From Ascidia mentula (taxonomy: Eukaryota; Chordata; Ascidiacea; Phlebobranchia; Ascidiidae), in the NCBI GenBank assembly GCA_947561715.1, contig OX387200.1, forward strand, positions 11,410,501 through 11,474,500: DNA of 64,000 bases, given 5' to 3'. Below, one piece after another: positions 142-54,942 of the stretch (positions are counted from its first letter, which is position 1; every line of letters begins with the position of its first letter). The notes under the pieces are model-generated. The model was not told the origin of the DNA. It did not search any database and worked only from the letters and a program-made list of their open reading frames with translations. The position numbers and the translations under genes were made by a program.

Positions 142-1558
142 TTAAGGTTCATTGTGTAGTCTACATCGAAATTTCGGTGGTGTCCATTTTCCTTTTTTAC
201 ATTGTAAAATAGCTAAACCAATAACTCTGTATCCATCATTGCAAACGTACAACACATAAGATGGTAAACGGTTTCTTGAATTTACTTGGTTAATCTGAGG
301 GCGACGAAATGTAACTGGATGGGCATTATTAATTTCGGGATAAGGTCCACATCCACCTGGCAAAAGACATTATGTTAAAGGAGATGAATAACTGCCGAAG
401 AATAGCCACCTTATACATGTTTCTAGTGTGTGGCAGTAAAGTAACTTAATTTAAAAATATTGTACTAAAACTTTAAAGCAGCAATAGGCTACACATTTAA
501 ATGGTCACAAACTCCATATCTACAAAAAACTTTCGTTGCGCTCTGAAAAAAGTATTTGATGAATCAAAAAAGTTGAGAACAAATAATAGCTGTGTACCAT
601 GACATGTGAATTTTGGTGAAGTCCAACTTCCATCTGACAAACACGACACAATTGCAGAGCCACTTCTAGTATATCCATCAACACAAGAATAAGACACTAC
701 TTCTTTGGGATGATATGCCAACTTTATGTTCGTGGGCTCCAAATGAGCATTACTCACTTCCGGTGGTTGAGGGCATGTACCTTAACACAACACTAATTGA
801 ACAAACAGCGGTGTGCACGTTAGCTCTACTTATATACACGGAACAAACAGAATAACTAAGAATATGTCAACGAAACCATGAGGTATCCTACCTCGGCACG
901 AAAGTATTGGCGGCTCCCACACCCCACCGGGCAAACAATGTATTGCAAAGACAAAGCCAACTGAATGACCTTTAAGACATCGATATGAAACGGTTTCACC
1001 TGGATTGTAGTTTGCTGGTTGTAATCTGTTTACTAAACGTGCATTATCTATAGATGGTGGTTCTTGGCAGCTTCCTGTAACATATAGTCAACAGTGTTTA
1101 GCCATCAAAGGTAAATATTTGAAACAAAACAACCTACTTTTGCAAATAAATTTGGGCTTTGACCAGCTTCTGTTAATTTTACATCTTACAAACATATGTC
1201 CGGTCTTTTTAAAACCAGGATTGCATGCAAACTTTACAACTGAATACACTGCATAACTTTGTTGAGCATTTGGGACAAGAGCGTTTGGAACATCTGGAGG
1301 TCTAGGGCAGGCTCCTTAAATGAAATGACAATGCCGTAATTTAAAAACATTATTTAATAATATGTTAAGTGTATTTACCAACACAGTAAAATTGAGGTTC
1401 TGAAAATACGCCCATATCAGTGCATGTTAATATTCCACTTCCATTGAAAGCTACATATCCTTTTTTACACCCGTACTGAACAAGTTGTCCCACTCCATAT
1501 GTCCGCCTTTGGCTCAATAACACTGCATTTTGAATTTTGGGAAAAGTTCTGCACCCAA
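142..1558 (-). CDS. Exons 14-18: five CCP/sushi domains and stop
   Basis: One CCP domain per exon: 1558-1379, 1314-1138, 1074-892, 780-598 and 356-142. Each has the four-cysteine pattern with a Gly-Tyr or similar turn after Cys2 and a Trp (or equivalent) before Cys4; examples are YGCKKGY, SCVDGY with SWTSPKFTC, and VCNDGYR with KWTPPKFRC. Internal boundaries are phase 1. The last exon runs through its CCP and stops at TAA (144-142) only five residues after the final Cys. The protein therefore ends in the CCP array with no membrane anchor or GPI signal. Lecticans carry one CCP after the lectin domain; five is unusual and recalls selectins or complement regulators. Confidence 0.88.
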
Positions 1559-4500
1559 CTATAAAAAAGCAACATTTTATCGTTGTTGATGAATCTGTCA
1601 ATTTTTAGACAACTTACTTGGTGGCGCTTTACAAGTAAAACCTAACCTATGGTTACATCCAACATCGTTCCATTTACCCTTTCTGACGTTAATCATGACG
1701 ACGCAGTCATCGCGCCACAAATGATTGGGTTGATTGGGTAACCAGTTGGTATACGTCTAAAAATATTATGTATGGTTCATTCCACAACGTGTATTAGGCC
1801 TACAAGAGAATCTTACGAAAGGACTGCCATCGCTCCACACGAAATTAGATTCTTGTCTTCTGTCGTTTAAGCCAATCCACTGGTACTGGTTTCTCCGAAT
1901 AAGTCTACCATACCAACCTATAATTTTATGCTGACATGTTAAAAGGCGATGTCCAAACGATTGATGGTTATTTATATCTAATATTGTCGGATTCTATTCG
2001 TGTAACACATTATTACTCGATAAAAAGCGGTTTTCTTTGTTGGTGTGAATGCTTGCAACAGAAGCATTAAATTTTTGTTTGCAATAATTTTCAGCGTTTT
2101 TCCAACTTTTTCCTTTGGTTTTAGGTATGATGTAGCAATACCCTTCAAATTTTCGCCATCCTCTCTGGCATGGAATTGTCAAATCTACACACAGATGACT
2201 TTTTGAACAACATTTTGTTTTATAAGTTTTTTAAAAGCCACCAGAATGTTCGGAAGATTTAACTTACCGACTTCACATTGAAATCCTGAAAATCCTTCAG
2301 GGCAAGTACAATGATAGCCAGAGACATGAGATTGGCAATGAGCTTCATTTTTACACGGATTTGAGCGACAGTAATCGATGTCTACGTGCCGAGGAAAAAG
2401 AGGAAATCTTTTACTTGCATTTTAAGTCAGTTAAAGTCACATTGTTTCAGTAAAAACGCTTTTATTAGAAAACAAATTAATAAGTGTATGAAAAACCTTC
2501 GCACGAAAAGCCATCTGCTTGCAGAGTGTGTCCAGGCAAACAAGAACAACCATAGCTCCCAACAGTGTTGTTGCAAATATGATCGCATTTATTTAGACCA
2601 TTACTGAGGCACTCATTGATATCTAAATGTAGGAAATCGTAAAACTTTTGCATATATATTATGTTTGCAAGTGAAACTGTTGCACGCAAAATTACTGATC
2701 AGTAGAATAGATAATAAATGAGTTTTCAATATCCAATTATATTAACGAAGTATGTTATTGCGACATCCTTACTAGTTTCGACACCTACCAATACACAGTC
2801 TTTCATCGTTCCCGAGATAGAACCCAGTTCGGCACACACATTCATACGATCCAAATGTGTTATAACACGAATGGTCACAATAATGATACATGTAAAAGCA
2901 CTCGTCATCATCTAAAAATAAACAAGACTATACACGCACCGGTATAACGTAGGTGGGCGTCGAAGGCTACAATTGCTTTGATCATAGCCATAAACGAATA
3001 AAGAAAATGCGCAACACAAAATATTGCTGTGTCAGAAACGAATCCAAGTTGCCTAGCCACAGCAATTGTTTGTAGTTTGCGCACGAGTTTGAGCTCATTT
3101 TTTAGAATTTACAAGACTGTAGTAGGCACAGATGCTTAAACTAATTACTAGGGCATTTTTTGTTGCTCAAGTAAGTTTTTTGCACAAGGTGTAGGTGCTT
3201 TGAAACGCACAAATATCAGACTATTTTTGTTCCAGGGTGACTAACAAAACAGATATAAAGTCATATTTCATTAATTTGGGAATAAAATATTATTAGGTTG
3301 TTAAAGTTGTAAGATGAATTGGAAAGATTTTGTTCGCCTTCGGGTTGGTAAAATATTCAATTCTTGGTCACAAAAAATAAGTGTTTAACTTGCATTGTGA
3401 CGCAATAGGTAGCTTTGTTTAACTTAAGGGTAGTCACGCTATACCTTACACCAGCCCTGTTTAAAGTGCATATGACACGTAAAAATAAAACATATTAATA
3501 ATCAAACTAAGAGATGTTCATAACTTTAAAACATTTTTGGCGAAAAAAGTAGCTTGATTTTTCTGAGATACAGCTGATCAAAGTCTTCAATTACCTCCCT
3601 TGGATGAAAATATGTATATTCCCTGTTTGCCGCTGCAGTCACGTGTTTAGGCAACCGATTTTGTCCAGATTACGGATCTTGGACGCTACCTGTGTCAGTG
3701 GGTTGACGTAAAGTTACAGCCCCTTCTATCGTATGTAGAATAGTTTTTGTTTGTTTGTTTTCTTGACCACATAAACGCTTCCTTCCAAAGTAGAAAAACT
3801 TCGGTGCATGTACCACCACAAAAAAACGCATTTAAGTTTTGTTGGCAAGAATATAAGCCACGGTTTGCGTAATTAGCGCACACGCATTTTTTGAAGCTTG
3901 AACCTGTTAACCGTAATTTATCAGCGAAAAGTAGAAAATTTTAGACCCAATAACGGTCAGCATTGGTTATGACGTCTCGACGGGACCGCCCCCAGCCGAT
4001 TCTGAAAACTTGCGCCTATGTTGGGGGGTACTGAGTGTGGTGATCGAACGCAACGCTTACACGGGCGCGTGTAATTAATTGTGCCTTTAGCTTTGTACGC
4101 TTCCTTTGGTCTACCAGCGCCCTGTGGTTCCTTAGTTGTTACTGGCGTTTCTCTGTGTGCAGTTTTACTTTTACTTTTCCTTTACAGGTATTATGGTTTA
4201 TCAGTCGAAGTTCAACTTAATTAAAACCTGGATTCCGTTTACTAATAAAACTCCCTCTAAAGGTTTTGACAATTTAATTAAGTTGTTCAAAGTTGATAAA
4301 ACAAAAAAAAATGGAACAGCACATACCCCGACCGAAGGATTTAACTGCTGATCCGAATGCACCCGATGCAGCCAAGGTTTTTTAAATTTTGGCTTCGTAC
4401 TGTTACGGATTACCTTGCCTCATTAGAAGACTTCAAAGCTGAAGGCTTACCGGCAATTAACAAAGCTCGTGTCATACGGAGTTTTCTTTCGCCTGATATT

Positions 4501-7500: not shown

Positions 7501-10500
7501 TTGAACTCATTATTTCTCTTGTGTCTTATGTGTCCTATAACCTATAGTTGTAAACAAAAATTAGCGGGGTGATTGTGGTGATCGAACGCAAGGCGTACAC
7601 GGGCGCGTGTAATTAATTGTGCCTTTAGCTTTGTACGCTTCCTTTGGTCTACCAGCGCCCTGTGGTTCCTTAGTTGTTACTGGCGTTTCTCTGTGTGCAG
7701 TTTTACTTTTGCTTTTCCTTTACAGGTATTATAGTTTATCAGTCGAAGTTCAACTTAATTAAAGCCTGGATTCGGTTAATAAAACTCCCTCTAAAGGTTT
7801 TGACACGGAGAAAACGGTGTTTCTAACATGTCCGCTAATGTATTAGAAACACCCCTGGGAAAAGTGGGCAGTAGGGGACAGCTTTTAGTGGTGACTGCTG
7901 TTATGCCCATAATATCATGATGAATTGATATTATGAATGTATCACACAAAATCCCTGACATTTCAGCATTTTTTAACTTCCCCTTTTACCATTTGATTTT
8001 AACAGTAAAATTTCAGGCATGCCAGGGAAAATTGCAACAACCCTATGCAAACCCTACTGCCCTTTATTGTATGTTTTAAGTATGACACTGTATAAAACCT
8101 GTGAATGATATGCAATATGAAAAAGTAAAAAAAAAACACTTATTGTCAATATGTATTCTAAAGGTTCTGTGTACTTAAGTGCACATAAATAATAGCTGTC
8201 ATTCGTAAAGCATGAACTTGTCTCAAATTGTGAACTTTCTTGGCAAGTTTATGCTAACCATAACAAAAACTTTTGGTTTAAAATTTTGAGTAGTAGTTGT
8301 CATCACACGGCTGTATACACTTGTTTCATGTAGATATCTTAGTAATTTCTCAAAGCGAAAGTGTAACCGGGAGACAACTATAGGAGTGTATACCCTCCAC
8401 CCCCAAAAAACAACATCAAGCAACAGAAATAAAGCATGTGCAACCTAGGTATTTTCCTGATCGAATTAGAATATTCGGATTTGGCCGAATAGTAGTTTTT
8501 TTTAATATTTTAACGAATCTTAAAATTGACTTTGAATCTAACATTTGCTTTACTCAATTTTAAGCAATGATACTTGGAATCGCATTGTTGTATATATACA
8601 CAAAAATAGGATTACACGAAGCAAACACTAGCAAATTAAATGCATAAATAACAAGCTCAGAATAAAATTATGTTGCTATGACGAAAATATTTACGACGCA
8701 CATGAAGCGGAATGTAAATTATGACATCTTCGAATATTGAGATTCGGTCACCCAATGTTAGGCCCAACCCAAATCTTTTTAAATTCTATGAAAAACGTCT
8801 GCATTATCCCAAAAACAAAAAAGAAACTGTTGTTTATTTTGTAGAATGTGAAATCGCCTGTAGTTTTTTTTGCTGTAGTTTTGTATATAGCTTAAATACA
8901 CCTTTTTTTTAAATGTTATATGCTGGAATTTATTATTTTAATCCTGGTTAATATAGTTGCCAACTTCAATGTTTCTTAGAGTTTATTTTCCATGTTTTTT
9001 TAATATTTGATGACAATCAAATTTGTTCACCTGCATTAAAAAAATTCTGTGCAACATAACTTGTATCTTTGATTCTGTTGCAAGATTTCTATTAATTATA
9101 AGCACATGCAAAAATAGATTTGAACTCAAGAATACATGAATAAAAAATAGATAATTCAGTGATTTTAAGGTTAATTTTTCACATACCAATTTCACATGTT
9201 TTTCCTAGAAGTCCTGTTGGACAAATGCAGTAATAACTTGCTACTCCATCCATAATACACGTTCCACCATTTGGACAAGCATTCGGAGGACAAAGAGATA
9301 CTGTAAAAGAGCATGCAATAAATCTTTGGTACAACATTTTTTAGTTATAACAGTGCCTTACATATTGGAATGTGTTGTAGAGTGTTTTTCATGTTCGTTG
9401 TTGCAGATGAAATAGGATTATTCGAAAAATCTGTAAAACTCACAGGAATTGAAACATTTTCTTTGTCTTCTTCTGTATTCACAATATGTAGGCTTGTCAG
9501 ATCATGTCTCTGTATATGCTTATCTGTTTTGTTTGTTATTTCTAGGATCTTTATTTCCAAAAGTGTTGTAGAATGGTGGTGCACAGTGTTAGCAAATATT
9601 GGTAGTTGAGTAGAATGTAAAAGGTTTTTAATTGATGCCACATCAATTTCAAGCATTCGGGGAAAAGTTTTCATTATAGATTCCATTGAAACATTAAAAT
9701 AAAAACCAAGATGTGTTTGTATTTTTGTAGAAACATTTGATTCAGAAGAAATAACAACATTTTGACTATATTTTTTTATAATTTTAGTACGTTTTGATGT
9801 TGACTTGTCAGGTTTTACAAATTTTATAGGTGTCAAATTGGTTTGTTTTTTGCCTATTCCATGTATTTTGTTACCGGGAAACGGACTGTAATTAAAAAGT
9901 AAAAATGTGTTAGAGAACAGAGGTACAACTGGAAATGATGTTAATTTTAAGGTATGTGATTTTTTGAAAACATATGTACTGGTAAGGCTTTTTGGAGAAT
10001 ACAAAGTGAGATTCGATTGAGAATGAATAGTCTTTTCTGCCAAAAAAGTTGCCGATGCTGGATTTAGCAAAGCAGTTGAGGTTATTGATAACCAGCTTAT
10101 ATTTTTTAATCCTGTTTTTGTTATGTTGTATGCAACCTCTTCACTTGTTTTTTTTTTGTCAGAAGTTGGATGAAATCTGCTTTCTTCCTTCGTTTTAAAT
10201 TCCTTATTTTGAAGACTTTCAGTTTTAAAAAAAACAGAAATGTTTGGCCCAAATAAACTTGTCACAGATGTATATAAACTTTCCACTTTGTTCGTATTGT
10301 TGTGTAAAAGTTTTGTAATGTTATTCTTCATGAAGGTACTGATGCTAGTTTTATGGAAGAATGAAACTGTAGAATACTTGCTTACAGAATGTCCAAATTT
10401 TAATTTCCAAGTCACATATGGTATGTTTGATAATAATTTTGGTTCTGTCATTTGCATCAACAAAGTTAAACTTCTTACACTACATGTTGTTGTTGGCAAT

Positions 10501-13500
10501 TCTGTTGGTAATTGTAGGTCATAACTTGTTGCAGCGCAACATAATGTTTTTGTTACAGATTGTTTGACTTGATGATCTGCAGAATAAATATCCAAATTAC
10601 TACCACCAGTACTTTTTGAAGTTGAACTGGAAGGGCTAGTTGGAGAAGTTTTTTTAAACTGCGGAGCAGATGACAAAATTTGAGTTACTTTGGCGGGAAA
10701 TTTTGACAAATTAATGTATTTAAAATGAGAAAAATATGTCTTATTATGAAGCCCTGTTGACGTCGTAAATGGTATGTCGGAATGAAATGCAGAAATATTG
10801 ATGAAAGTTAGTCTATGAAAGTCGGTAGCCTGTTCCAAAGAAAATGGTTTTGCATTACTTCTCTGCAGGCTTGTTGTTTTAGTGTATGACATGGCGTCAG
10901 CAAGAAACCTAGCATAGTATGAAGTTGTTAGTACTCTGTACATTGGGATTAAGTATGTAGTCAATGAAATATGGGATTTAGCTGCTCCAATTCTGTTTGA
11001 TACAGCTTGATCAAACACTGTTATCTCCTTTGTCATTTCAACAAACTGTAATGATGAAAATAATTTTGGTGTCTGTTTGATTGAGGTGACTACAGATGAA
11101 GTAGATAATTGAAGGTGGCCATAAACTGTGCTGGGCATAGGTGTTTTATCCCAAGTTTTAAAAAATGGGTAATATTCCATGACCATCTTTTCAATGCTAA
11201 ATAATGGATAAACCGACATAACTTCGGTTGTCATTGGTCTTGTTGTATTAGTGCTAACAAATATGCTGATCATGTCTGTAAAATTCTCACCTAGATATGT
11301 AGTTTCTTTGTGTTTTGAGGAGGTTGTTGTTTTTTCCATTTGTTTAGAAGTGTCCATGGTGCTAATAGGTTTTGTATATTTGTAAAATTGTGAAGCAGAC
11401 AATAAAACAGTTGATAGTAATAGATTAAAGTGTTCTTTGATTATTGGGAAAATGATGTCTGTCCTTCCGATAGATTTTGGAAGCATGTATGCATGTGAAA
11501 CTAAACCTTCATTGCTTAGTAAAGAAACATGTGAAGCACTTGTTGTTAAGCCCAACAAGGAAGAATGTGGCCAAGTCCATGTGGATCGCCAATGTAATGG
11601 CGAGATTTGAAGTTTTGTTGTTTTTGAGCTGAATATAAAACTTGACAGCAGTACTTTACTTTTCGGAGATAACACTATAAATACAGAGTCATGTGTGGTG
11701 ATATCTAAACTTGATATCACTGTGCAACATTTAGATACATCCACGCACATATATGCAGAAGTATCATCAGTGTTCAAGGTTACTGATACATAACCATGTA
11801 CATTTTTAATTACAGTTGAAATAATGCCTCTTTCTGACAAATTCTTTTGAACTCCTAAACTGGATCCTTCAAACCCAGTTTTTTTTGTTTGTGTGTGTGT
11901 ATAATTGGTGTGAAGAAATCTTATTTCAGTTGCTTTGGTTATTGTCTTTAAAACATTCTCAATATTGGGAATTGAGTATGTTGTCAATGTGTAAAAGTGG
12001 TCACCAACAAATTTACTTGCACCAGAAACATCATCTGTGCTATGTACAAAAGTTGAGTTATGTTGTAATGGTTCTTTCTTCTTTGTCAGATCTAAGTTGG
12101 GATGTGATGTTGGCCTGAGGTGTTTTAGTGAAAAGGGAATAGATATTAGTGAAGTTTGCAAAAACATTTCTGGGATAGTTTTAACCTGATATGTTTTAAC
12201 AACTGAATGAACCACTGGATTAATTGTAAGCAACATGATATTTTCAGTTTTTCGTAGCATAATGAGTTTTGTCTTAGAATAATTCAAATAAATGTTGGAA
12301 GTTGCAGAAGATATGGGAACACTAGCTTGTGTTGGTGCAAATGTCACATTAAATGAAGCAATTCCCTGTAGTTTTGTTGCATTGATATGCATGAATTTCT
12401 TAATGATATTAGACACAATCTTGGTTTGGTAGGTAGGTGTTTCTTCAACTTTCAGCGATAATAATGTGGTGATTATTGGGCCACCCTGAATTAGTCTTAC
12501 TAAAGATTTTGTATATACGTAGGACTGTGGAACTGTACTATCAATACTAAAACAACAATGACGAAATGGCGTTGCAATTTTATCCCTATTTACTGTCAAA
12601 TGATCCACATGAATTTCAGTTTTGAGAATGTAAGTGAGAAGATTGGTAATTGTGGCAGACGGGGAATGTGGCCAAACAGATTTGTATCGCCAATTTGAAG
12701 GCAGTGTTTTTGGTTTAAATGTTTGGTAACGGTATATAAAATTTAAATTCAATATTTCTCTCTTATGAGTTGATATCATTAATTTGAGAACCTGTGTAAT
12801 ATGCAATTTTGATGTGGTTATATCAATACCGGATACATCAACAAATGCAGCTGTAGTAGAATATATATCTCTGTTCGATAAACATATTTCTGCATCTGTT
12901 TTTGTTTGTTTATGTGTATAATTGGTGTGAAAAATTCCTGATTTGGTTGCTTTGGTTACCTTTAGAACAATGGGAATTGTATATGTTGAAAATGTATAAA
13001 TGTGGAGGTCAACAAACCCTGAATAAATGTCAGTTTTTGTTGTAATAAACGTAAAATTATTAGCTTTTGTGGTCATGATTGATTTTGTCTTAAAATGATG
13101 CATATGAATATTAGAAGTTGCAACATATTTAATCACTGTAACTTTAGTTGGGGCAAATGTCATATCAAATACAGCCAATTGCAGTAGTTTTGTTGTATTG
13201 ATACCAATTGATTTTTGGAAAGTATCAAACACAACCTTTGTTCGGTATGTGGGTATTGTTTCTTCAAATTCGGTCGATAAGAATGTAATGCTGCCTTTGA
13301 CCATTGGGTCACTCTGTTTTCTTTTTATCATATATTTTGTAAATGTGTGAGACAGTAAAACAGTGGCATCACTACTAAATAAAGATTTATGAAGAAATGT
13401 TGAAAACTCTTCCATTTTCAATTTTGTGTGTACTGCTAAATGATCCACATGAATTTCTGTTTTGAGAATGGAAGGGGGTAGATTGTTAATTGTGACAGAT

Positions 13501-40500: not shown

Positions 40501-43500
40501 AGAATATCACTAATTTTTGGTAACTTTGTCACATAGATTTGGACATAATGAATTGTGGTTGAATGTATATGCCTCTTGGATAAACTGATTTCTGTTCCTG
40601 TTTTTCCCAAACTAGGCTCTTTAAACCCAATTTTAGTTTCTTGTTCATGTGTATAATTGTTCTGAAGAAATTCTGTTTCAGTTTCTTTGGTTATTACCTT
40701 TAGAACATTGTCAATAGTGGGAATTGAATATGGTGTAAATTTGTCAAAGTGGTCACCAACAAGTCCACTTCCACCAGAAAACTCAATTGTGCTGTACACA
40801 AAAGTTGATTCATGCAGTATTGTTTGTTTTCTTTTTGTCAGGTGAAAACTAAGGCCTGTTCTTGGCTGAAAATGTTTGTCTGAAAATGTATGTTCTTCAC
40901 TTATGATTGTAAGTAATGTAATATTTGTTAGTTTTCTAGTAACGATGGATTTTGTTTTGAAATGATATTTATAAATATCTGAATTTCTTTCAGATTGTAG
41001 CATTGTAACTTGTGTTGTGGCAAATGTCTTGTCAAATGAAGCCAATTGCAGTAGCTTTGTTGTATTATTACCAATTGATTTTTGGATCATATCGAATACA
41101 ATCTTTGTGTGGTTTGTGGTGGTAGTTTCTTCACCAACATTTGATAATAATGTAGTGTGCACTTTGGTCATTGGGTCACTCAGTTTTGTTTTTAACATAT
41201 ATTTTGTAAATGTGTGAGACAGTAAAAAAGTGGCATCACTGCTAAAAAAAGATTTATTGATAATTGTTGAAAACTCCTCCATTTTCAAGTTTGTGTATTT
41301 TGTTAAATGATCCACATGAATTTCGGTTTTTAGAATGGAAGGGAGCACATTGTTAATTGTGGTTGTGGTACCACTAGCAGTGACATTGACAGCATTACAT
41401 GCAGTTGTAGCAGCAACTTTTTGTATATTATTCTTGTAGCTTTGGGCATATTGAATTATTGTAAAAAATGTATTCTTCTTCGTTAAACTATTCGGTGTAC
41501 CTGGTTTTACCCAAATAGATATTTCAAACCCAATTGATTTATGTGCATAATTGGTTCGATGAAATCCTGTTTTTGTTGCTTTCCTTATTACCTTTGTAAC
41601 ATTATCAACATTCTTATTTGTGGTTGAAAGTAGTACAATACTTTTCTGAGGTGGTAATGTAATTTTCCTTTTATGTGCACTGATACCTGTAGCCATTTTC
41701 TCACGACCAAAAATGCCAACACTAATATTACCTGTGACACTATCAGTTGTGAATGATATTGTTTCTCTTTTTTGAAAATGAATTGAACCAGTGTACGAAA
41801 AAAATTGTTTTTTGGTAACGGTGCTTTTTTCAAAACAATTAGTGTAAAAAAAAATTGAATTTGTTTGATTTTGTGACTTAGCACTAGTCTTTTCATGCAT
41901 AGATCGTTCGGAGAAATTGCCTTCAAATATTAAATTTCTACAATGCATGTACCTACTTAGTGTATGCAAATCTAAAGTGCCAGGACAAGTTGATGTGCTT
42001 TTGATTTTACAGTCTGATTTTGTTCTTTGAATAAATTTACTTGTTGTTAAAATAGACATGTGTTTAATTGAAACAATATCAGTATGTCCAAACCATATGT
42101 CACTTATGATAGCTGCCCATGTCTGCCCCACTATATTGGGTGTATATGAAAATTCTTCCACTTGCTGATAGGAAGTGAAAGTTATGGTCAAGTTTTTAAC
42201 AAGCAACTGCATTGCTGAAACTTGAGTAGATGTATAGAATTCCAAAGGTATAGGTGACTGGGTCCAATGGTAGAAGGTAACTGGAGCCTTTGTAGTTGGT
42301 GCTGGTAAACCTAAATTCATCAATTGAACAGGTTTGTGTATAAAATTGTTAAGCCACATTTTGCACTACTGGTTAGAATATTTCTTTTCTTTACAGCATA
42401 ATATGTGACTATTAGACTGCTAAATGAGAACTATGTTATGGAACTAAAATTTTATATACAACAGGAAGGGCTAGTATGTCACTTGAGCAAACTAGGCAGC
42501 CTACTTTAAATAAAAACGTTTTTGTGTCTTGCATTTTAATTTTTTTTCTTTTTCGTTTAAATTATTTTAAAATTAATTGCAGTAAAAATTGAGGCAAATA
42601 ATTCAATTTCTTTCTTTGTTAATGAGACTATGATACGTCAGAATTGTGTCTAGGGGTTTTGTGATATTTCATTCAAAATGTCAATTCACAACCTGCCAGC
42701 TGTAGTAATCGAATAAAATAGCGTCTTTAGCACAGTAATGGTAGATATAAAGAGTGAAAGCATAGCTGTGTTAGCACTTGGTAACAATTGATACGAATAA
42801 TTTTCAATTAAGTATTGCTCATTCTGGCTAAAATGTGTAATATTGGCAGTACCAAAAACGACCTTGCAGGACTAAAAAATCGAAAGGCACAGAAAAAAGA
42901 AAGGAAAAGCTAAACAAACCTCAGCTACACTTAAAATTTTTAATAGTGATGATCAGGACTGTTAACATAAAGATTTTAATAGTTAGTACCCTTGAGAAGA
43001 ATAAGTATGGAGAAACAACAGCATTTTGCAACAGAATTAACAATAGAAAATGTAGTTAAGCAGCAAAAGATGACAAGAAAAACAGCACCACTTGCCCTAA
43101 GAATGCTTATGCCTTGCATGAATTCAGTGACCCATGTAATTGGCCAAAAGATTTAGACATGTGTGAAAAACACTACTTGAAGAAGGCATAAAGCAGATTC
43201 AATCACATGATTTCCTAGAGACAAAAACAATCAAAATATTTTATACTGTGCATTACAACAGGAGGCTTCCGGATGAGGGGTAGGTTTGTCATGAGTGGGT
43301 GGTGTATTTTCTGGCAAACAATGCTGTTTTCTGCTTTTGTTGCAAATTGTTCGGCAATCTTTTTTGCAAGACAGTGGTTCTAAAGCCCGGAAAAAACACT
43401 GGAGCAACACTTTATTCCTCATCAGAAAAGTTGCAAACATCTACAAAACTTTGTTGGGAGTTTGAACTAAGGTTGTTAAAGGGTAAAACAATTGATATTG

Positions 43501-46500: not shown

Positions 46501-49500
46501 AAAACTTATCAAAACGTTTGCCAGACATAGCTACTAATTTATATCAAAAATAACCTTGCGCCGGCCCTGGAAGGAGGTAGGGATGTGCTGGACCGAATCC
46601 AATTTTCAGCCGAGGAGTAGGTGTCCGAATATTGACTTTGAATCCTACATTTGTTGCTACGATACTTGGAAGTACTTATTGTCTTCGGAATTTATGCACG
46701 AAAATAATAGAAAATTCAACGCGTAAATAACGACGTCAGAACAAAATTGTTGCCATACCCAAAATATAAACTATGTGTTTGATTTTTTCGACCGAAATGG
46801 AAATTTATGACGTCATTAAATATTCGGATTCGTCCGAATAATGGGTGCAGGCATTCGGATTCCGCAGAATCCGAATCTTTTCCAATTTGGGCACATCCCT
46901 ACCTGGAGAAATCTCAATACTTGGTTTGTGAGAAATTTGTAAAACACCACACTGGGCCCACTGCTCTACTGACTCAGCTACAGAAGAACATAGGCTAGAT
47001 TGGGTGTGTCAAGATACATTGGTGTAACTGAATCGATGGAGCAATAGGTCCAGCCTGGCTGCGATGCCAGTGAGCCTTATGATTTCTACATTTTGTGTGT
47101 GGTTAATTCATAGCGCCCTCTATGCTATGGGTTCATTGCATTCTAGTGTCTGTGCAAATACCATATCTGTTGGTCTGTTTTTAAGCAAGGAAACGCAATA
47201 TAAAACATATCGTTGTAGTTTTGATAAAAAAAATGAAAAGAAGCTTTTCACCATTAATCCAATCTAACACGGGCTCTGGGTATGCAACACATATGAATAA
47301 ATATGTTTAATAAACATAAAAAAAAATTTTACACACCAACAAAAAGGTTGATGGATCCTTTACTTTTCTGAAACCCAACTCTAACTTCACAAACATATGT
47401 CCCGGAGTCCGAAACTTTCAAGTTTTTCATCAGCAAAGAAGCATTTCCTTCTATCTTGGATAAGGACACACGACCCCTGATGAAGCACAATGTATATTTA
47501 AAAATAAGTCATAGGCGTTGAGAGGATTTTCCTGTACAATGTTTTGCAACATATTTAAACAAAACAAAGCATGGTATCGGTTAAAAAACAAGCATTATTT
47601 TTGACACGGAAGAACTCGGTTAACCCGGATTCGATTTGCCTGGATTTAGGCAGTTCCAAATTGTCCATAACGTTTGTTTTCAGGTGGTCAGTAGGATATC
47701 GGTAAAAGTCGCCTCAGTTGAACACAGCAAAACACATCCTATTTAGTCTGACTAAGGTTGTCCTATACTAAACTTTGGTATTTTTATGGAAAGTACTGCG
47801 ATGCTTTTCAAGTGCAGTAAGTTTTTAAGTTTCTTATTATTTATTTGAAGTGAAACCCACAAGAACAATTGTTCGCAAACAATTTAAAATAGGACCTGTT
47901 TGTTAATTTGATGAATAAAGAAGTCACCAAAGAAAAATAGTTCATATTTCCACATCTCCTCGATGAAATTTGCCAACAGTTTTAAAATTCTTACAAAACT
48001 GCAAATGCATACTGTTAATGTTGGTGCTACACGCAATTTATTTTTATTGCTCATGCAATACGTGTAAAAATATCATACCGCTTCTGTTACGCAGACTACA
48101 TTTCACATGGACAATGAACTGTGTAGGCTATGGTTGTGTGAGAGGTGCCAGACAATTAAGAGACCGTTTTCTTTCGCGAGGGAGTTGGGCTGACAGAGAT
48201 ATCCGATTCTGACGCCCCATCATAAACATTTTATGCTTGTCTTGCCGTCAGCGTGTGTTGCAGTCTTGCGTATCCATTCTTTTACGAGATTACAAACTTT
48301 TTGCAAGCACCATATTTTTCGCCTGTTTAAAAAGTATGTTCTGATCCGATACTGTCTTAAGGTATCGGCTCCGATCTGATATTACCGGATATCCCTAGAT
48401 GTGAATTTTCAGGATAGCTTAAAATAAACACTGTGTTTTCGTAAAATGTGAGAAGTGAATGAATTTACCAGATTTAAGTTTCGCATAGCAATTTAGGATA
48501 CACCACGTAATGATTTCACACAGGAATGCCGTACCGGCAAGCATTTTTCTACTAGTACAGCTTTCCGGCTTAGACACTAGGGACGATGCAAAGAGTTTCT
48601 GGCCACAAAAGCATTGGTCAAATAAACTGGGACGTCTTACGCGCAGCAATATTTACGGTTAGTATTCCCTGTTACAATGCTTTAGCATCGTATATTCATG
48701 TTTTAGTCTAACTCCGACTTTTTATTGTCTCTGTCACGCATGAACACTTCGCCACAGAACCACAACCGATACCGATACACCACCGAGGTCAATTTTACTT
48801 GTCAGCAATTGTTTTTGACAAGCAAGCAAAACAGTCTGTACATTGTGTATTATTTCCCTCAAAATAGGATTTTTTGAATTTAATTATGATATAACAGTTT
48901 TGTTGTTAGCATATTTGAAAACGTTGACTCAATTAAAGTAGACAAAAATGCTGTGTCATAGGTCAATAGAACTTTTATTAGGCCGTTTAATTTATAAAAT
49001 ATTCTGTTTCTTATTTTGTAATACCACACTTTATTTACAATGCCTCAGTTTTGTAGGTTAATTCGCTGCACACGTTATAAAAAAAACTACAGATGCGATT
49101 TCCTGGGATAGGCACTATTTCAGGTGCATTTCAGAAATCAGGAAATTGCTTTGGGTTAGGTTCAAAGTCAACACCTCGAATAGGATATCACCGTCTTGGT
49201 CAAAAACTAACTCGCATACATGACATTTCCTAGACAGTCTAGCGCCTCCGCAATCGCACACCGTTCATTGTTCGTGTGAAGTGTATGACGCAAGTCATTA
49301 CGTAACATATGTAAAATTTGTGAATGGTGTTTGTTTGTTGGAGTAAAACTTGTTTCAAGGCAAAGTGATTTCATATAAACTGCATTGTTTCATTTTGCTT
49401 AATTTTTGCACATTAATAATCAAATCACAACTAAACACGTTGTGATTATATCCTGTGTATAGTTTTGAAATGGGCAATAGAACAAATGATATTGTGTTTG

Positions 49501-52500
49501 TAATGCAACTGTGTATTCAACTGACAAATGCCTTTTCTTATTACTTGGTAACGTCCTCTATTTCACTTACTTTCAACACATATTATACTGAATGACAGCA
49601 TTAATACAGAAACTTAAATGAATCAAAAATCTTACCAAGAAAACAGCAAATTTACACTACAAAAATGCATTGGTCTAGGCAAAATTTACCATGATAAATT
49701 GGCACATAAAAGCCACGTTGTTACTATTTAAAACAGAAAGCAACAGATTTCGCTATGACATACTATTTCAATCTTGTAGTAGTCAGTAACATGCAATATA
49801 TTGGCTGAAATTTTATAGGTTTCGGAAAAAAACTTTGCCTGATTTTGGATGTGCTATATCAATTTTCAGCTGGCAAAGCATCATGCAGAACAATTGCGAT
49901 GTCATAATTGGTGATCAAAAAATTTTTGTATCTAAAATTGCAAATAAATCTTGTCAACCCATCCATTTTGGGGTGAAATACAAAGAAGCGTTAACACACT
50001 TAAGACAGGAACGTGCAATCCCTTTAAGCTGTCCGTGTCAGTGTGGGGTGGACACTCCTTGGAGAGCACATCTGGCACTCTGTTTGAGGCCTTTTCACTC
50101 AACGAACAAAAACCGAAATGTTCAAGGGTTACGAACCCAAAATGCCACAATGGAAGTTGGAATGCCACATGAGTATATGTTATAGTTGTAGATCCAATTA
50201 GACGCTGGTCGGCCAAACATTATTCATAACTGTCACAAAAAAAAAACTTTTCTGCTTATAACTTCTTTCGGAGCTCGACAGGGAAGACAAATCTTATATT
50301 GTCACAAAGTGTTATTTTTTTGTGATGGCAATGAATAATATTCCGTCGTAAGGCACAGAGCCTCTTTGAAATCTATTTTATTTAGGGTCGGAAAAAGTAT
50401 CACAGCATGACTTTTATTCTTGGTTTCTCCACATTTTATGAAATGGTAACCGTTGTTGCAGAGAACACTGCGGTTAAGCAAGAATCTAATTTCAAGTATA
50501 GTTGTTATAAATGAGCTTTTTGTTTAAAAAGTATTGCAACTAAGTCAGAGACCTGTAGCAAACCTTTTCGACATGCGCGGTTAAACGGCCTTAATAAGTA
50601 GCAAAGTTTGAACTTTGTTGCTAACTATAAGAAAAAAAAGAAGTCAGAGTCAAATTGCAATGTCTCGCGACTTCACAACTTTGGACTAAACTGAGATTAA
50701 ATTGTGTTTGGGATAACCTGTCTCACCATTTTCATGTAGCCAATTTGCATTGGGGGACAGGGCAGGTCCTTGGCACATTTGACCGATTTCAGCACATGCG
50801 CCTGAAACGGGGCGGAATTTCTAGAAAATTTAGCATTAATCGGAAGAAAACTACAACTGTCTTTCAAAATCGGACTCGCAATTTTGGAGAATGGTAAACT
50901 TCTGATTTTTACGGTGCCTTGACCATTTGTTGTTTTGGATTTGGCATAACTTCATCGATCACGTAACAGCTCGCAGCGAGAAACATTGGAAAAAGCAGGT
51001 GAAGAAAGTTAAGTTGAATCCGTCAAAAACAACAGTGAACAAACGCCTTTTTAGTAAGCCCTCCACGCTATAGCTTTCACTTCCTAGCCCAATTTTCCTA
51101 CTGTCTATCCGGTTTTCGCTTTTGAATAATCACCTTGTACTATGATGTGTTTCGACTTGACAAACCTATAGCTTTTGGCTGAACTGATTCACACACGTTT
51201 TTATACGCTGGCTTTTTTTGTGCCACATAAGCGCAACTAAAGTTAAATTACTTGCATAAATTTTGTTAAAATTTTTATTTTCTTAATTTCCAATTTCCTT
51301 TGCCAATTGATGTATACATTTAACTTGGTTGAAAGTAATTTTTTTGCAAAAGATACTTATGCAAATATGCGTTTCATGCCCGCTTTGCGCCGCGTGCCCT
51401 TGAATCATCATGAATATTCGTAACCTGGTCTTATATTATATTCAGGCATATTATTATGCGGATATTCACATCATCAAATATCCGAAAGTACACCGGCCGA
51501 GAAAAGAACCAAGAGGTTTTAAACTCTGAACTTTGGCAGATAGATAAAAGTAACAAGCATTGTTGATCTAAACAAATATCATATATGGTGGCATTTTGTG
51601 TTCGTATTGTTCAACACATTTTATCACAATTTGTGCGTATTGACTAAATACCTGAACGAGCCGAAGCTTTCGTCAATGATCCATTCCTTTATCATGACTT
51701 TCGTTCTTGTTTGTTGGTTTCCTAATTTGTACCATTTCACGCGTTTCGAGTAGAAACTTAAACTTGTGTGGGGACTAGGAAATATACACGGAAGAAGTAC
51801 CTGACCATGTGGCGACCCGCTTTTAGGTCCAAATGTTTTTACTGCAAACTTTTCTGAAAAGAAAAAAGTCACCTAAATAAATTGATTTTACTATCAGATA
51901 CCTTATACCTGCACATATTTTGCATTCTCCTGAACACAGTGGTGAAACGCGGACCCGTCGGAGACAGGAAACTTTTTGCAAAGTACATTTATTTTTGTAC
52001 GTTTTTTTGTTTGAGCCACACACCGGAAATTTGCTTAAACCTCGACACTTAAAGGGGCAAATGCATTTCTGTAAAATGTTACTGAAATCAAACATCAATT
52101 ACGGCCATAATAACAGATTTAGTTATGTACACAACTGTTGAGTTTTAAATAGGGATGTCTCGAAATAGGGATCGAATTCTGCCAAACAGTGGTTATATAT
52201 TCCAATATTGGACCGAGTATGGACACCGAGTCCAAATATTGACAGGCAACCCTACATTAGATGTGCTTTTCGTTTCGGCAGAAACTAACAATATCATTTT
52301 ACTAGGCGAAATTTTAGTTTTTTGGCAATATGATTCCACTGATAAAAATTCATGCAAAATTACGTTGTGACACAAATTACAGAATCTTTGTCAAACTCAT
52401 GTCCTACCTGTTTTTCACTGCATTTACCGTAAGGCTCGCATTCCCAATCTTTGTTACAACGTTTAGGTAGTCGACGAACTAGAAGTATTCAAATAAACAC

Positions 52501-52840
52501 AAAAGTAAATTCTACCGGTAGTTGATCACCGTATATGTGGTTTTAACTATTTTAGTGAGATTACTACTTACAAATAAACAACCTTACCTACTACAGAAGA
52601 AGTAAGAATCATGGGTTTGTATCAAACATTAACAGTTTTGAGATACCTGCTTTTTGCTCAAAACTGCCAAAATGGTTGAATCAAAACCATGCAAACATAC
52701 AAAATGCGGCAATGAAATAAGTTATATGACCAATTATTTTTAAAAATTATAAATTGTTCACCTTTCTTCAAAGACGACATCCTTGCGTATACGGTAAATA
52801 CAAAAAGTCCTAAAAAGCAGAGCGAGATTAACCGAAACAT
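142..52840 (-). CDS. Giant lectican-like proteoglycan gene, 18 exons (composite model)
   Basis: I assembled this from exons at 52840-52762, 52478-52408, 52068-51909, 51853-51652, 47476-47337, 42310-9362, 9300-9187, 2911-2789, 2622-2497, 2381-2268, 2184-2017, 1917-1817, 1756-1618, 1558-1379, 1314-1138, 1074-892, 780-598 and 356-142. All junctions use AG/GT and agree in phase, and the sum is divisible by three (about 11,807 residues plus stop). Domain order: signal peptide 1-20, follistatin/Kazal 34-103, Ig V 104-217, Thr/Ser-rich repeat region 218-11,200, four EGF 11,201-11,359, CTLD 11,360-11,495, five CCP to the end. There is no transmembrane segment, so a secreted matrix proteoglycan is inferred. 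The architecture is that of lecticans, which bind hyaluronan through link modules; none is seen here. The least certain junction is Ig exon to giant exon, across 5 kb. If it is wrong, there are two neighbouring genes on the same strand. Confidence 0.7.
1618..2184 (-). CDS. Exons 11-13: C-type lectin domain
   Basis: Three exons (2184-2017, 1917-1817, 1756-1618) joined in phases 1 and 0 give a full CTLD of about 125 residues. Landmarks in order: [21 protein letters not shown], the hallmark [37 protein letters not shown] and FTCK. All six cysteines of a long-form CTLD are there, as is the WND calcium-site motif. The sugar-specificity triplet reads QPN, neither the mannose-type EPN nor the galactose-type QPD. 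The spacing and wording of the WIGLND to FTCK half closely resemble lectican lectin domains, which bind tenascins and fibulins through protein contacts, so sugar binding should not be assumed. Confidence 0.88.
2268..2911 (-). CDS. Exons 8-10: three EGF domains, calcium-binding type
   Basis: Exon 8 (2911-2789) has DDDEC, then [10 protein letters not shown], and ends with DERLC. Exon 9 (2622-2497) has [16 protein letters not shown] and DGFSC. Exon 10 (2381-2268) has [16 protein letters not shown] and GFQC. Exons 8 and 9 show the calcium signature (acidic residues before the first Cys, and N-T-x-G-S-Y that permits Asn/Asp hydroxylation in other proteins). Exon 10 keeps the acidic start but has a shorter loop. 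All three exons are symmetrical phase 1-1 and could be gained or skipped without frame change. Calcium-rigid EGF arrays typically space a lectin domain from the stalk. Confidence 0.85.
2912..4035 (-). other. Intron 7, part on the 3' side of the Gypsy element
   Basis: No exon is recognised here. It contains one copy of a dispersed repeat at 3467-3590. A short minus frame at 3883-3695 has five cysteines but no domain pattern or clear splice sites. The DNA next to the Gypsy insertion is locally GC-richer (about 3960-4035). Confidence 0.45.
3467..3590 (+). repeat. Dispersed repeat, inverted partner at 54246-54380
   Basis: About 120 bp reading from CATATGACACGT through ATTAATAATCAAACTAAGA to AGCTGATCAAAGTC match the reverse complement of 54246-54380 over nearly the whole length, with scattered mismatches. 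It codes for nothing visible and is probably part of a nonautonomous element. Confidence 0.6.
4036..4271 (+). repeat. 5' LTR of the Gypsy element (236 bp)
   Basis: It pairs with 7574-7805 and has TG..CA ends. A pyrimidine-rich stretch with CTTTACAG lies inside both copies. Directly downstream I could not recognise a convincing tRNA primer-binding site. Confidence 0.88.
4311..5220 (+). pseudogene. Gypsy gag, frameshifted
   Basis: The frame starts at ATG 4311, 40 bases after the LTR, and reads 24 codons to a TAA made by an extra T in a run near 4378-4384. The remaining gag continues in another frame. It holds a capsid-like helical region, then two zinc knuckles of CX2CX4HX4C form ([14 protein letters not shown] and [14 protein letters not shown], about 4969-5070). 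Gag packages the element RNA; the knuckles bind nucleic acid. The frame then drifts into non-homologous sequence where the protease frame takes over (about 5220). Confidence 0.8.
5221..7498 (+). pseudogene. Gypsy pol: protease, RT, RNase H, truncated integrase
   Basis: Protease is marked by LLDSGAS (about 5250). RT spans about 5680-6200 with [10 protein letters not shown] and the catalytic YAYLDD. RNase H is at about 6490-6780 ([19 protein letters not shown]). Integrase starts after 6830 with an HH-CC zinc region ending CRTC, then the catalytic Asp in AIDFKGPV and IHSDRG. The region with the third acidic residue is missing: at about 7305-7313 the frame hits TAG, and the normal Pro/Arg-rich pol tail resumes in another frame to a stop near 7498. 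Other lesions: TAA 5427-5429, frame change in the T-run near 5666-5676, TAA 5839-5841, TGA 6328-6330, frame change near 6765-6780. Confidence 0.85.
7574..7805 (+). repeat. 3' LTR of the Gypsy element (232 bp)
   Basis: It differs from the 5' copy by about six substitutions and lacks 4 bp near the AATAAAACTCCC stretch. The stretch AGCGGGGTGAT before it is a weak candidate polypurine tract. Confidence 0.88.
7816..7853. repeat. Perfect 11 bp inverted repeat next to the LTR
   Basis: GGTGTTTCTAA (7816-7826) and TTAGAAACACC (7843-7853) are exact reverse complements with a 16 bp loop. The hairpin begins 11 bp outside the Gypsy LTR. It may be an older element end or chance. Confidence 0.45.
8460..8760. 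repeat. MITE-like repeat related to the one at 46576-46904
   Basis: The ends carry inverted CGAATATT/TTCGG words (8468-8492 and 8731-8753). Inside, blocks such as GACTTTGAATC, ATACTTGGAA and GCATAAATAACAAG line up in the same order with 46640-46780. It is an older, more diverged copy. Confidence 0.5.
9187..9300 (-). CDS. Exon 7: EGF domain 1
   Basis: The exon follows CTTTTACAG and ends ATTG before GTATGTG, phase 1 on both sides. It encodes a compact EGF domain with six cysteines: [18 protein letters not shown] and GKTCEI. There is no D-x-D/N-E calcium motif before the first cysteine, so this is a non-calcium EGF domain. In lecticans the domain next to the glycosaminoglycan region is also a plain EGF domain. 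The following intron is 6.3 kb because a Gypsy element sits in it. Confidence 0.85.
9362..14227 (-). other. Decayed repeat units and unique tail of the giant exon
   Basis: From 14227 down to about 11600 the sequence still aligns to the 355-residue unit but has many substitutions and shortened copies. One regular unit is cut after PRTGLSF and fused at about 14215 to a diverged copy starting with [11 protein letters not shown]. Below about 11600 the sequence becomes unique Ser/Thr/Lys-rich with sequons. Cysteines appear in VSKCCTV, TLCCAAT and TTCSVR. The frame stays open to the donor at 9362. Confidence 0.6.
9362..42310 (-). CDS. Exon 6: 32.9 kb giant exon, Thr/Ser-rich repeat region
   Basis: A single uninterrupted frame runs from the acceptor at 42310 (GAATTTAG, then Gly codon in phase 1) to the donor at 9362 (AATAT before GTAAGG, phase 1). 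It encodes about 10,982 residues. A stop lies in frame just upstream of the ATG at 42359, and that ATG is followed by no signal peptide, so a spliced entry is preferred. The head (about 41380-42310) and tail (about 9362-11600) are unique Ser/Thr-rich sequence. Between them lies a 355-residue tandem repeat. The region is nearly cysteine-free and rich in Thr, Ser and Lys, with many N-x-T sequons and Ser-Gly pairs beside acidic residues. In lecticans one large exon encodes the chondroitin sulphate region, and I infer the same role here. I do not recognise a folded domain in the repeat. Confidence 0.8.
14228..40852 (-). repeat. Tandem array: 25 units of 1,065 bp (355 residues)
   Basis: The same landmarks recur every 1,065 bp without one indel; for instance the word GATGTTGCAGAATATTTAGT (plus strand) or close variants recurs near 14353, 15418, 16483 and so on to 39913. 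Units look mostly well over 90% identical by eye. Each unit carries a [10 protein letters not shown] segment, sequons in NNYTH, TNFT and TNTTK (or NNTTK), and the Ser-Gly sites [11 protein letters not shown] and VDFSGSG. Diverged partial units flank the array: half a unit near 40860-41380, and several decayed ones down to about 11600. No known repeat family comes to mind. Confidence 0.92.
41380..42310 (-). other. Unique N-terminal head of the giant exon
   Basis: About 310 residues without the 355-residue periodicity, starting [15 protein letters not shown]. They are Thr/Ser-rich with several sequons, and contain a few cysteines (in STCPGTL, YMHCRNL, TNCFEK, TTACNAV) that the array lacks. No domain is recognised. 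The run of Pro and Thr directly after the Ig domain looks like a linker. Confidence 0.55.
43120..43610 (+). pseudogene. hAT-like (ZMYM/TTF-finger type) transposase, N-terminal fragment
   Basis: A short frame with [10 protein letters not shown] (43120-43190) is followed, after stops, by a 103-residue frame from 43299. That frame has [11 protein letters not shown], then a Trp-containing stretch and [16 protein letters not shown] and MKNLARRI. This succession (D-P-x-x-[10 protein letters not shown] finger, helix with T-I-D, then N-L-A-x-R) is that of the TTF-finger and DUF4371 part of hAT-related transposases and ZMYM-like proteins. Multiple frame breaks show it is dead. It lies antisense within intron 5 of the proteoglycan gene. 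Confidence 0.6.
43941..44633. repeat. Large inverted repeat, about 220-240 bp arms
   Basis: Left arm 43941-44157 (weaker to about 44178) and right arm 44416-44633 (weaker from about 44395) are reverse complements with only a few mismatches by eye, around an unrelated spacer of about 215-255 bp. Both arms include GACATGCCGTGTTGTGATAA and CAAAGCGATCTGTGG. It sits between the two hAT-like fragments. It could be a foldback element or long terminal inverted repeats of a short nonautonomous transposon. Its transcript would form a long hairpin. Confidence 0.85.
44862..44971 (+). repeat. Dispersed repeat, second copy at 57931-58036
   Basis: Shared words in the same order include TGTGACAGA, GGGCATTTCC/GGACATTCCC, GGCGAAAC and TAGAAATAC. 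It is an old copy of an unnamed interspersed repeat. Confidence 0.5.
46020..46545 (+). pseudogene. hAT-like transposase, C-terminal fragment
   Basis: The first frame has [15 protein letters not shown] and [10 protein letters not shown]; after a stop comes [13 protein letters not shown] with FGFLND. In a third frame (46442-46530) [15 protein letters not shown] and [13 protein letters not shown] match the pattern of the hAT C-terminal dimerisation segment. Order and strand fit the N-terminal piece at 43120-43610, so the two are probably one element split by about 2.4 kb of later DNA. There are several stops and frame changes. Confidence 0.62.
46576..46904. mobile_element. MITE, 329 bp, terminal AGGTAGGGATGTGC
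   Basis: AGGTAGGGATGTGC at the left end and its exact reverse complement at the right end bound noncoding DNA with several ATTCGG/CCGAAT words. The TAGGGATG-type ends are common in hAT-class nonautonomous elements. Flanking CCTGGAAG and CCTGGAGA might be a decayed 8 bp target duplication. It begins about 30 bp after the hAT-like transposase C-terminus. Confidence 0.65.
47306..47311 (-). terminator. Possible poly(A) signal (ATTAAA) for a short FS-Ig isoform
   Basis: If exon 5 is not spliced at 47336, translation stops at 47331-47329. An ATTAAA hexamer follows 17 nt later on the minus strand. That would give a secreted 219-residue follistatin-Ig protein. ATTAAA is a known weaker variant and is common by chance in AT-rich DNA, so support is thin. 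Confidence 0.3.
47337..51853 (-). CDS. Exons 4-5: V-type immunoglobulin domain split by a 4.2 kb intron
   Basis: Exon 4 (51853-51652) holds the first half: strand B cysteine in VLLPCIF and the core tryptophan in RVKWYKL. It ends FGSFR in phase 2. Exon 5 (47476-47337) resumes [19 protein letters not shown] and carries DSGTYVCEV with the second cysteine. Joined, this is one complete V-set domain of about 110 residues. The two Cys, the Trp and the D-x-G-x-Y-x-C motif are all present, plus one sequon (NAS). V-set domains of this general look begin link proteins and lecticans, and also occur in junctional Ig proteins. Exon 5 can end at GTTG before GTGTGT (phase 1), which fits the phase of the giant exon. 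Without splicing, a stop follows after two codons (47331-47329). Confidence 0.72.
47477..51651 (-). other. Intron 4 (4.2 kb) inside the Ig domain
   Basis: The interval separates the two Ig half-exons. It contains only short frames without recognisable domains, for example at 49835-50185 and 50655-50897. It also holds one MITE-like repeat near 48195-48399. I see no link module, no second Ig exon and no other gene. Confidence 0.55.
48195..48399. repeat. Possible short MITE with GATATCCG ends
   Basis: AGAGATATCCGAT at the left and the reverse complement of GGGATATCCGGT at the right are similar over about 10 of 12 bases. An internal CCGATAC/GTATCGG pair is also present. It is short and diverged, so this is tentative. 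Confidence 0.35.
51909..52478 (-). CDS. Exons 2-3: follistatin N-terminal and Kazal domain
   Basis: Exon 2 (52478-52408) encodes a small Cys module containing [17 protein letters not shown]. It joins in phase 0 to exon 3 (52068-51909), which starts KCICPFKC and carries the Kazal signature [14 protein letters not shown] followed by two more paired cysteines and CSGECKIC. Together they form a follistatin-type domain (FOLN hairpin plus Kazal) of about 70 residues, as found in SPARC, agrin and follistatin-like proteins. Such domains bind growth factors or inhibit serine proteases; nothing in the sequence decides which. Exon 3 ends CAG before GTATAAGG in phase 1. Pairing a follistatin domain with a following Ig domain also recalls the IGFBP7/KAZALD1 group. 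Confidence 0.75.
52762..52840 (-). CDS. Exon 1: signal peptide
   Basis: The exon begins [21 protein letters not shown] short basic start is followed by a strongly hydrophobic core and a small-residue site (VYA), which is a typical secretory signal with cleavage expected near residue 19-20. The exon ends AAAG before GTGAAC, in phase 1. The next exon starts with two bases completing a Val codon. There is an in-frame stop about 30 codons into the intron, so this exon cannot be extended far. A signal peptide here makes this the natural start of the gene; the giant exon has none of its own. Confidence 0.7.
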
Positions 52841-54380: not shown

Positions 54381-54528
54381 AAGATGATCATGTAAATACG
54401 TCGTTTTCGCGGTCGACTTTGAAAATCACGTGACTTTGCTGCGAGTCGACTTTAGCTTCGAGTCGACTTGGCCATACGCACTTTAAGACGCTTTAATTGT
54501 CTTTTTCTCTTCGCCGAAAACGAGAGAC

Positions 54529-54942
54529 TTGGATCGGCGAGTCAGCTTCGAAGCTGTCTTAAACCGTCATGTAAACAGGGTTAACAGGTTTAGCCAGCCT
54601 CAATTGGTGGCCCGTTACAGTCAGCTTTTACCGGCGACATTCGGCTCAGTGGCGAAGTCCGAGGTGCATCACTTTTCGGATGCGTCTACTCAAGGATATG
54701 GAACCGTGTCGTACCTCCGACTGGTGAATGTAAGGTTAAAGTCCATTGCTCATTGTTTTTTTGCAAAGTCGAAGGGGACACAACCTAAAATCGAGAGCAT
54801 TCCCAGTCTCGAACTGGCCGCTGCTGCTCTTGCAGTAAAAGCTGACAAATCGCTTCGACGCCAATTGAAGTTCGAAACGTTTGTGTTTTGGACGGACTCG
54901 TGCGACGTCCGACAGAGCATACGCAATACTACAATATATTAA
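54529..54942 (+). pseudogene. BEL/Pao RNase H fragment
   Basis: An open stretch of 137 codons includes HHFSDASTQGYGTVSYLRL, IPSLELAAAALAVKAD and FWTDSCDVRQSIRN. These are the landmarks of the BEL/Pao RNase H domain, with the catalytic Asp residues in SDAS and TDS. It breaks off at a stop right after the last motif. No RT precedes it. It belongs to a different copy from the BEL/Pao element at the right end of the window, whose RNase H wording differs. Confidence 0.7.

Follow-up and report, generated by a model that had tools for sequence, protein, structure and literature searches.

The minus strand of the window (the whole stretch of 64,000 nucleotides that was analysed) carries a gene that is probably the tunicate pro-orthologue of the vertebrate lecticans (such as aggrecan and versican, proteoglycans of cartilage and brain), encoding a secreted and very long core protein of the extracellular matrix, with no second genomic copy seen in the genome searched (195.8 Mb in 79 contigs). 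Its 18 exons, running from 52840 to 142, join into one frame of 35,424 nt (11,807 aa plus stop), with the ATG at 52840 and the TAA at 142. All 17 introns are bounded by GT..AG and the phases agree throughout, in line with the single 35.4 kb frame of the original prediction. The exons and the repeat array are as follows.

52762..52840, minus strand: exon 1, start codon and signal peptide (by eye)
52408..52478, minus strand: exon 2, follistatin/Kazal module, first part (Pfam)
51909..52068, minus strand: exon 3, Kazal domain (Pfam Kazal_2, 1.6e-7)
51652..51853, minus strand: exon 4, Ig V-set, first half
47337..47476, minus strand: exon 5, Ig V-set, second half; donor in phase 1
9362..42310, minus strand: exon 6, giant middle exon of 32,949 nt
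14742..41363, minus strand: tandem array within exon 6, 25 complete copies, all in frame, of a unit of 1065 bp (355 aa)
9187..9300, minus strand: exon 7, EGF 1 (Pfam)
2789..2911, minus strand: exon 8, EGF 2, calcium-binding type by sequence (Pfam)
2497..2622, minus strand: exon 9, EGF 3, EGF_CA (Pfam)
2268..2381, minus strand: exon 10, EGF 4 (Pfam)
2017..2184, minus strand: exon 11, CTLD part 1; donor not certain
1817..1917, minus strand: exon 12, CTLD part 2; acceptor not certain
1618..1756, minus strand: exon 13, CTLD part 3, with NQPN and WND motifs
1379..1558, minus strand: exon 14, CCP 1 (Pfam)
1138..1314, minus strand: exon 15, CCP 2 (Pfam)
892..1074, minus strand: exon 16, CCP 3 (Pfam)
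598..780, minus strand: exon 17, CCP 4 (Pfam)
142..356, minus strand: exon 18, CCP 5 and stop codon (Pfam)

The modules initially proposed (follistatin/Kazal, Ig V, four EGFs, CTLD and five CCPs) were recovered by Pfam families together with the reading of the exons. Besides Kazal_2, Pfam identified V-set (4.4e-14), Lectin_C (7.3e-23), several EGF families and Sushi over five stretches (1.5e-39); the count of four EGFs comes from the reading of exons 7-10 and from the alignment to Ciona, not from Pfam. The C-terminal order EGF-CTLD-CCP is that of the lectican family. The folded modules (follistatin, Ig, each EGF, the CTLD and each CCP) all begin in phase 1 and, the last one excepted, end in it as well; such 1-1 phase modules are the usual mark of shuffled extracellular modules. 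As joined between exons 11 and 12, the CTLD is six residues longer than that of Ciona, so that another splice pair may be used at this point. With 11,807 residues, the protein is indeed several times the usual length of lecticans.

Exon 6 lies within an open frame of 11,006 codons and is rich in threonine (14.4%) and serine (10.8%), with 3.5% proline. The single giant Thr/Ser-rich middle exon had been correctly recognized, but the earlier account missed that most of it consists of tandem copies repeating every 355 residues exactly. This period also escaped Tandem Repeats Finder because the limit of that program is 500 bases. When one unit was compared in six frames with the whole genome, all 32 matches fell in exon 6 and none elsewhere; 25 of them are full-length (as assembled) and 84-99% identical to the query unit. 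The coding frame of one unit contains no stop, against 16-29 stops in each of the other five frames. Non-adjacent copies (for example units 4/8, 10/12 and 6/11) share 99.4-99.8% DNA identity, which points to recent block duplication. The pN/pS ratio among the 25 copies is 0.74, a sign of weak constraint on the residues, the frame nonetheless being kept open. The array is a striking example of a protein enlarged by tandem duplication within a single exon. The repeat unit matches no Pfam family at E 0.1, and its AlphaFold model, without a confident fold, is uninformative (pLDDT 28.8, pTM 0.19). In the consensus unit, two SG clusters follow an acidic residue, EFSGGSG and DFSGSG, and the giant exon as a whole contains 104 SG, 23 SGxG and 119 NxS/T motifs. 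In a single unit, SG motifs are weakly enriched, the measures exceeding those of shuffled sequences only slightly (p 0.01-0.06), and the N-sites show no excess (p 0.53).

Among 5.8 billion proteins, with candidates of 453-1442 aa, the best match is a Ciona intestinalis protein annotated as 'zonadhesin-like isoform X2' (P0002, 1150 aa), which is 46% identical to the query over 74% of its length. Its tail consists of four EGFs, a CTLD and four Sushi domains, with no link module. Its 630-aa middle region is Thr/Glu-rich and contains five SGxG motifs, a number reached in none of 5000 shuffles; its acidic-SG sites are not enriched (p 0.56) and strict acidic-SGxG motifs are lacking. We consider this protein a likely orthologue, judging from the sequence. 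It shares with the Ascidia gene the EGF x4-CTLD-CCP tail, SGSG motifs within a middle region rich in Thr and the lack of a link module, but it differs in its repeats, in having four CCPs and in a model devoid of Ig and Kazal domains, which are not visible because the fetched model begins inside the middle region. No orthologue was thus seen for the N-terminal half of the Ascidia protein. In the homologue search with the four EGFs, fibrillins dominate among the matches listed (120 of 636).

The CTLD scores clearly best with those of lecticans. With BLASTP, the Ciona protein reached 119 bits and 15 lectican-type proteins 97-118, against 84 for the best other match. Among single-CTLD chains of the PDB, aggrecan came first (105 bits), followed by MRC2 (84); by whole-chain score, the multi-CTLD yolk-sac IgY receptor, LY75, PLA2R and mannose receptors rank above aggrecan. 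The phylogeny of the CTLD against lecticans, suggested earlier as a check, upheld the grouping in one of two trees. In the 64-row tree, the Ascidia and Ciona sequences form a pair (99/84) that joins 14 lecticans (97/87), whereas the 51-row tree, with eight lecticans, does not settle the question: lecticans and the tunicate gene come together in 62% of bootstraps (the bootstrap itself being not settled), this group is not rejected (p 0.565), and a tree that unites the tunicate CTLDs and MRC1 CTLD6 has about the same likelihood (AU p 0.48). Grouping with MRC1 CTLD2 or CTLD4 is rejected (0.007 and 0.012). For the reverse search, we assembled 14 sequences from the Ascidia genome (13 fetched loci plus the window), the genome having at least 150 CTLD matches. 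The window gave the best single alignment for all four lectican CTLDs and for Ciona, and also for both MRC1 CTLDs tried among the three non-lectican queries; by summed score, locus L002 stands above the window for the versican row. The next CTLD in the same genome is 41% identical (E 1.7e-10).

Kinship with mannose receptors or selectins was set aside in view of weaker CTLD scores, MRC1 CTLD6 being still allowed by the 51-row tree. Members of the mannose-receptor family (MRC1 and its amphioxus and starfish relatives) share the CTLD fold and a moderate similarity, up to 84 bits, but they carry many tandem CTLDs, and for the members compared Pfam lists neither V-set nor EGF nor CCP families. A giant matrix protein of the nematode DIG-1/mesocentin type, at which CTLD clusters had hinted, was also rejected on the mitochondrial COX1 gene (contig C79, 19.5 kb): TGA must be read as Trp, and AGA/AGG stand at expected glycine positions (reading by eye), which is the ascidian code. 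Genome-wide, 150 CTLD matches were scored of 770 candidates; at least ~105 of the 150 fall in a very large cluster of C-type lectin exons at C1:22.4-27.6 Mb, which suggests a lectin expansion.

The Ig domain leans to lecticans only modestly, as far as its scores can tell, in a comparison set without HAPLN. Among the fetched Ig proteins, nearly all of which are lecticans, the best match is a fish neurocan (36.7 bits); the leading fish lectican Igs, scored as single domains, are mostly neurocans, and the only non-lectican match is hemicentin (8.7 bits). With the same query against the PDB, the best passing single stretch is an antibody V domain (31.4 bits), so the lectican lead is small, about 5 bits; CD4 chains reach 34.7 as a sum over domains, the best CD4 domain scoring 20.9. 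The combined follistatin-Ig head had no match at E<=0.01 among candidates of 269-856 aa, and no second such head was found in the Ascidia genome, where Kazal-like matches are weak (best E 0.0015, 24%).

Vertebrate lectican genes lie near MEF2 and IQGAP genes. In Ascidia, a MEF2 exon (named by eye) and IQGAP (RasGAP_C) are located on the chromosome of the window (C67), CHD1/2 maps to a different chromosome, and no RGM gene was found in the genome. Two of the three located genes are thus on a chromosome that makes up 11.6% of the genome, with a chance of ~0.04 under random placement.

None of the 11 Xlink matches found genome-wide at E<=10 lies in the window, the stretch 42311-47336 included, and a link module hidden in the 5-kb intron 5 was not detected at this threshold. 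The absence of a visible link module therefore held under a profile search, and with Kazal_2 matched at 1.6e-7 the picture of a link-free gene with a follistatin/Kazal module added before the Ig domain was borne out. Of the 11 matches, eight make up link modules, located at C1:25.228-25.242 Mb and C67:20.863 Mb, and three are weak (E 0.29-4.2). On C1 (25228103-25241932; L016 and L017), three tandem loci contain pairs of link-module exons, and frames resembling F5/8-type C domains adjoin the link exons at the two of these loci that were read (by eye). On the chromosome of the window (C67:20863286-20863991; L018), link exons are accompanied by Thr-rich exons and a stretch that looks membrane-spanning, an arrangement that is CD44-like by eye. 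HAPLN link proteins, as generally described, consist of a lectican-type N-terminal Ig and two link modules and nothing else; no gene of this Ig-Link-Link type was found among the link exons of two C1 loci and the C67 locus. A HAS2 query of 297 residues, which does recover HAS chains from the PDB, that of frog among them, found no hyaluronan synthase in the genome (best match 17.8 bits, E 0.135). Since the link modules that we looked for are absent, the Ascidia gene is by definition not a hyalectan.

Two questions bear on this reading of the locus: whether it holds one gene and how that gene arose. The evidence for the join between 47337 and 42310 consists of phase and splice-site scores: exon 5 ends in phase 1 at the Ig boundary, which fits exon 6, and in leave-one-out scoring its donor falls within the best 1.3% of the 3,292 GT on the strand, the acceptor of exon 6 within the best 4.9% of the 3,167 AG. 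From these we infer that exons 5 and 6 are joined in one transcript. An in-frame TAA two codons beyond the exon 5 donor, with an ATTAAA ~17 bases further on, could instead mark the end of a gene. The locus would then comprise two neighbours, a short secreted follistatin-Ig protein (exons 1-5, ending at this TAA) and a giant repeat-EGF-CTLD-CCP gene whose first exon is unseen, an arrangement that would also suit the 5 kb length of intron 5 and a Ciona model that covers the second half only. We regard it as improbable, given the matching phases and well-ranked splice sites, the lectican leaning of the Ig domain and the fact that the giant frame has no visible signal peptide of its own (by eye).

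The gene resembles the lecticans or hyalectans (aggrecan, versican, neurocan and brevican) in its V-set Ig, in a giant Ser/Thr-containing middle with SG clusters, in its EGF-CTLD-CCP end and in its best CTLD scores, and the description of the gene as lectican-like is sustained. It differs from them in the lack of link modules, in the follistatin/Kazal module before the Ig, in having four EGFs and five CCPs, in its size of 11.8 kaa and in its tandem array of 355-aa units. A tunicate protein assembled independently by shuffling of Ig, Ser/Thr spacer, EGF, CTLD and CCP modules, and convergent on lecticans, would not be surprising in a genome with so many CTLD exons; the Kazal head sets it apart from lecticans, the 51-row tree holds the lectican group weakly and the Ig lead is small. 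Yet such convergence appears unlikely to us, as the CTLD scores, the modest Ig lead, the shared module order with 1-1 phases and the linkage to MEF2 and IQGAP together favour common descent. These signs, drawn in part from small CTLD and Ig data sets, are concordant, none of them being decisive by itself, so that descent shared with lecticans is supported but not settled. The original prediction had offered either an ancestral or an independently assembled relative of the lecticans; common descent being favoured, an ancestral state is possible, but a tunicate gene that once had link modules and lost them would explain the data equally well or better.

Such a loss, a sub-case of descent as a lectican pro-orthologue, would mean that the chordate ancestor possessed the link modules and that tunicates lost them along with hyaluronan. 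It is quite possible, and the genome retains link modules in other genes. Lancelets branched off before tunicates. One study describes lancelets as binders and probable producers of hyaluronan and places some of their link domains within its HAPLN and aggrecan clusters, which favours loss in tunicates; Ciona XLINK is described there as binding other glycosaminoglycans and not hyaluronan (PMC12383584). Against loss, a domain survey whose genomes included Ciona and amphioxus counts the combination of Xlink and V-set among the vertebrate-specific pairs that arose by shuffling (PMC11788884). Conversely, the Ascidia gene may keep a pre-vertebrate state, the tunicate-vertebrate ancestor having had link-free Ig-spacer-EGF-CTLD-CCP lecticans and link modules having been shuffled in behind the Ig in vertebrates only; we put this forward tentatively.

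As a lectican pro-orthologue, the Ascidia protein could act through two folded binding ends, the follistatin/Kazal-Ig head and the G3-like EGF-CTLD-CCP tail, tethering matrix partners, the CTLD being probably calcium-dependent as in lecticans. The ~25 repeats between them would form a long and probably unfolded spacer that bears O-glycans and N-glycans, with glycosaminoglycan chains (in ascidians perhaps of dermatan sulfate) attached at the SGSG/SGGSG clusters. Together, the glycan-bearing spacer and the binding ends might produce a hydrated, space-filling matrix by analogy with aggrecan and versican. Ascidians are reported to produce highly sulfated dermatan sulfates, which makes a glycosaminoglycan-bearing core plausible (PMC3127831). 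Because link modules are absent, link-based anchoring to hyaluronan is not expected. We are thus probably dealing with a matrix proteoglycan lacking this type of anchoring, whose glycosaminoglycan attachment, partners and tissue role we infer from its domain make-up.

Lecticans have been presented as vertebrate novelties tied to cartilage, and amphioxus is reported to have no clear lectican, yet two ESTs resembling the EGF-lectin end (PMC1950077). Among the titles and abstract openings listed from the open-access literature, none describes a tunicate lectican. If the pro-orthologue reading is true, the family would date from the tunicate-vertebrate ancestor at the latest, and sequence and expression could be used to test which was assembled first, the core or the hyaluronan binding. 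A link-free tunicate gene extending from Ig to G3 is what a pre-link ancestor would be expected to look like, loss being at least as likely; if the pre-link state is real, hyaluronan binding would have been added late to a proteoglycan that already existed.

Mobile elements occur in and around the gene. Intron 5 contains transposase-like frames on the plus strand (~43060-46730), of hAT type by eye, which may have lengthened this intron; one piece was scanned and gave no Pfam match. Intron 7 harbours a Ty3/gypsy-like LTR element (3957-7760, plus strand) with pieces of reverse transcriptase, RNase H and integrase spread over different frames, a zinc-knuckle gag-like frame recognized by eye (no Pfam match) and ends that look similar by eye. 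Upstream of the gene, a Peptidase_A17 fragment is present at 54487-54942 (plus strand), the second in the window, the first belonging to a BEL/Pao element at 60836-64000 (minus strand) with Peptidase_A17, reverse transcriptase and integrase zinc finger, which runs off the window edge.
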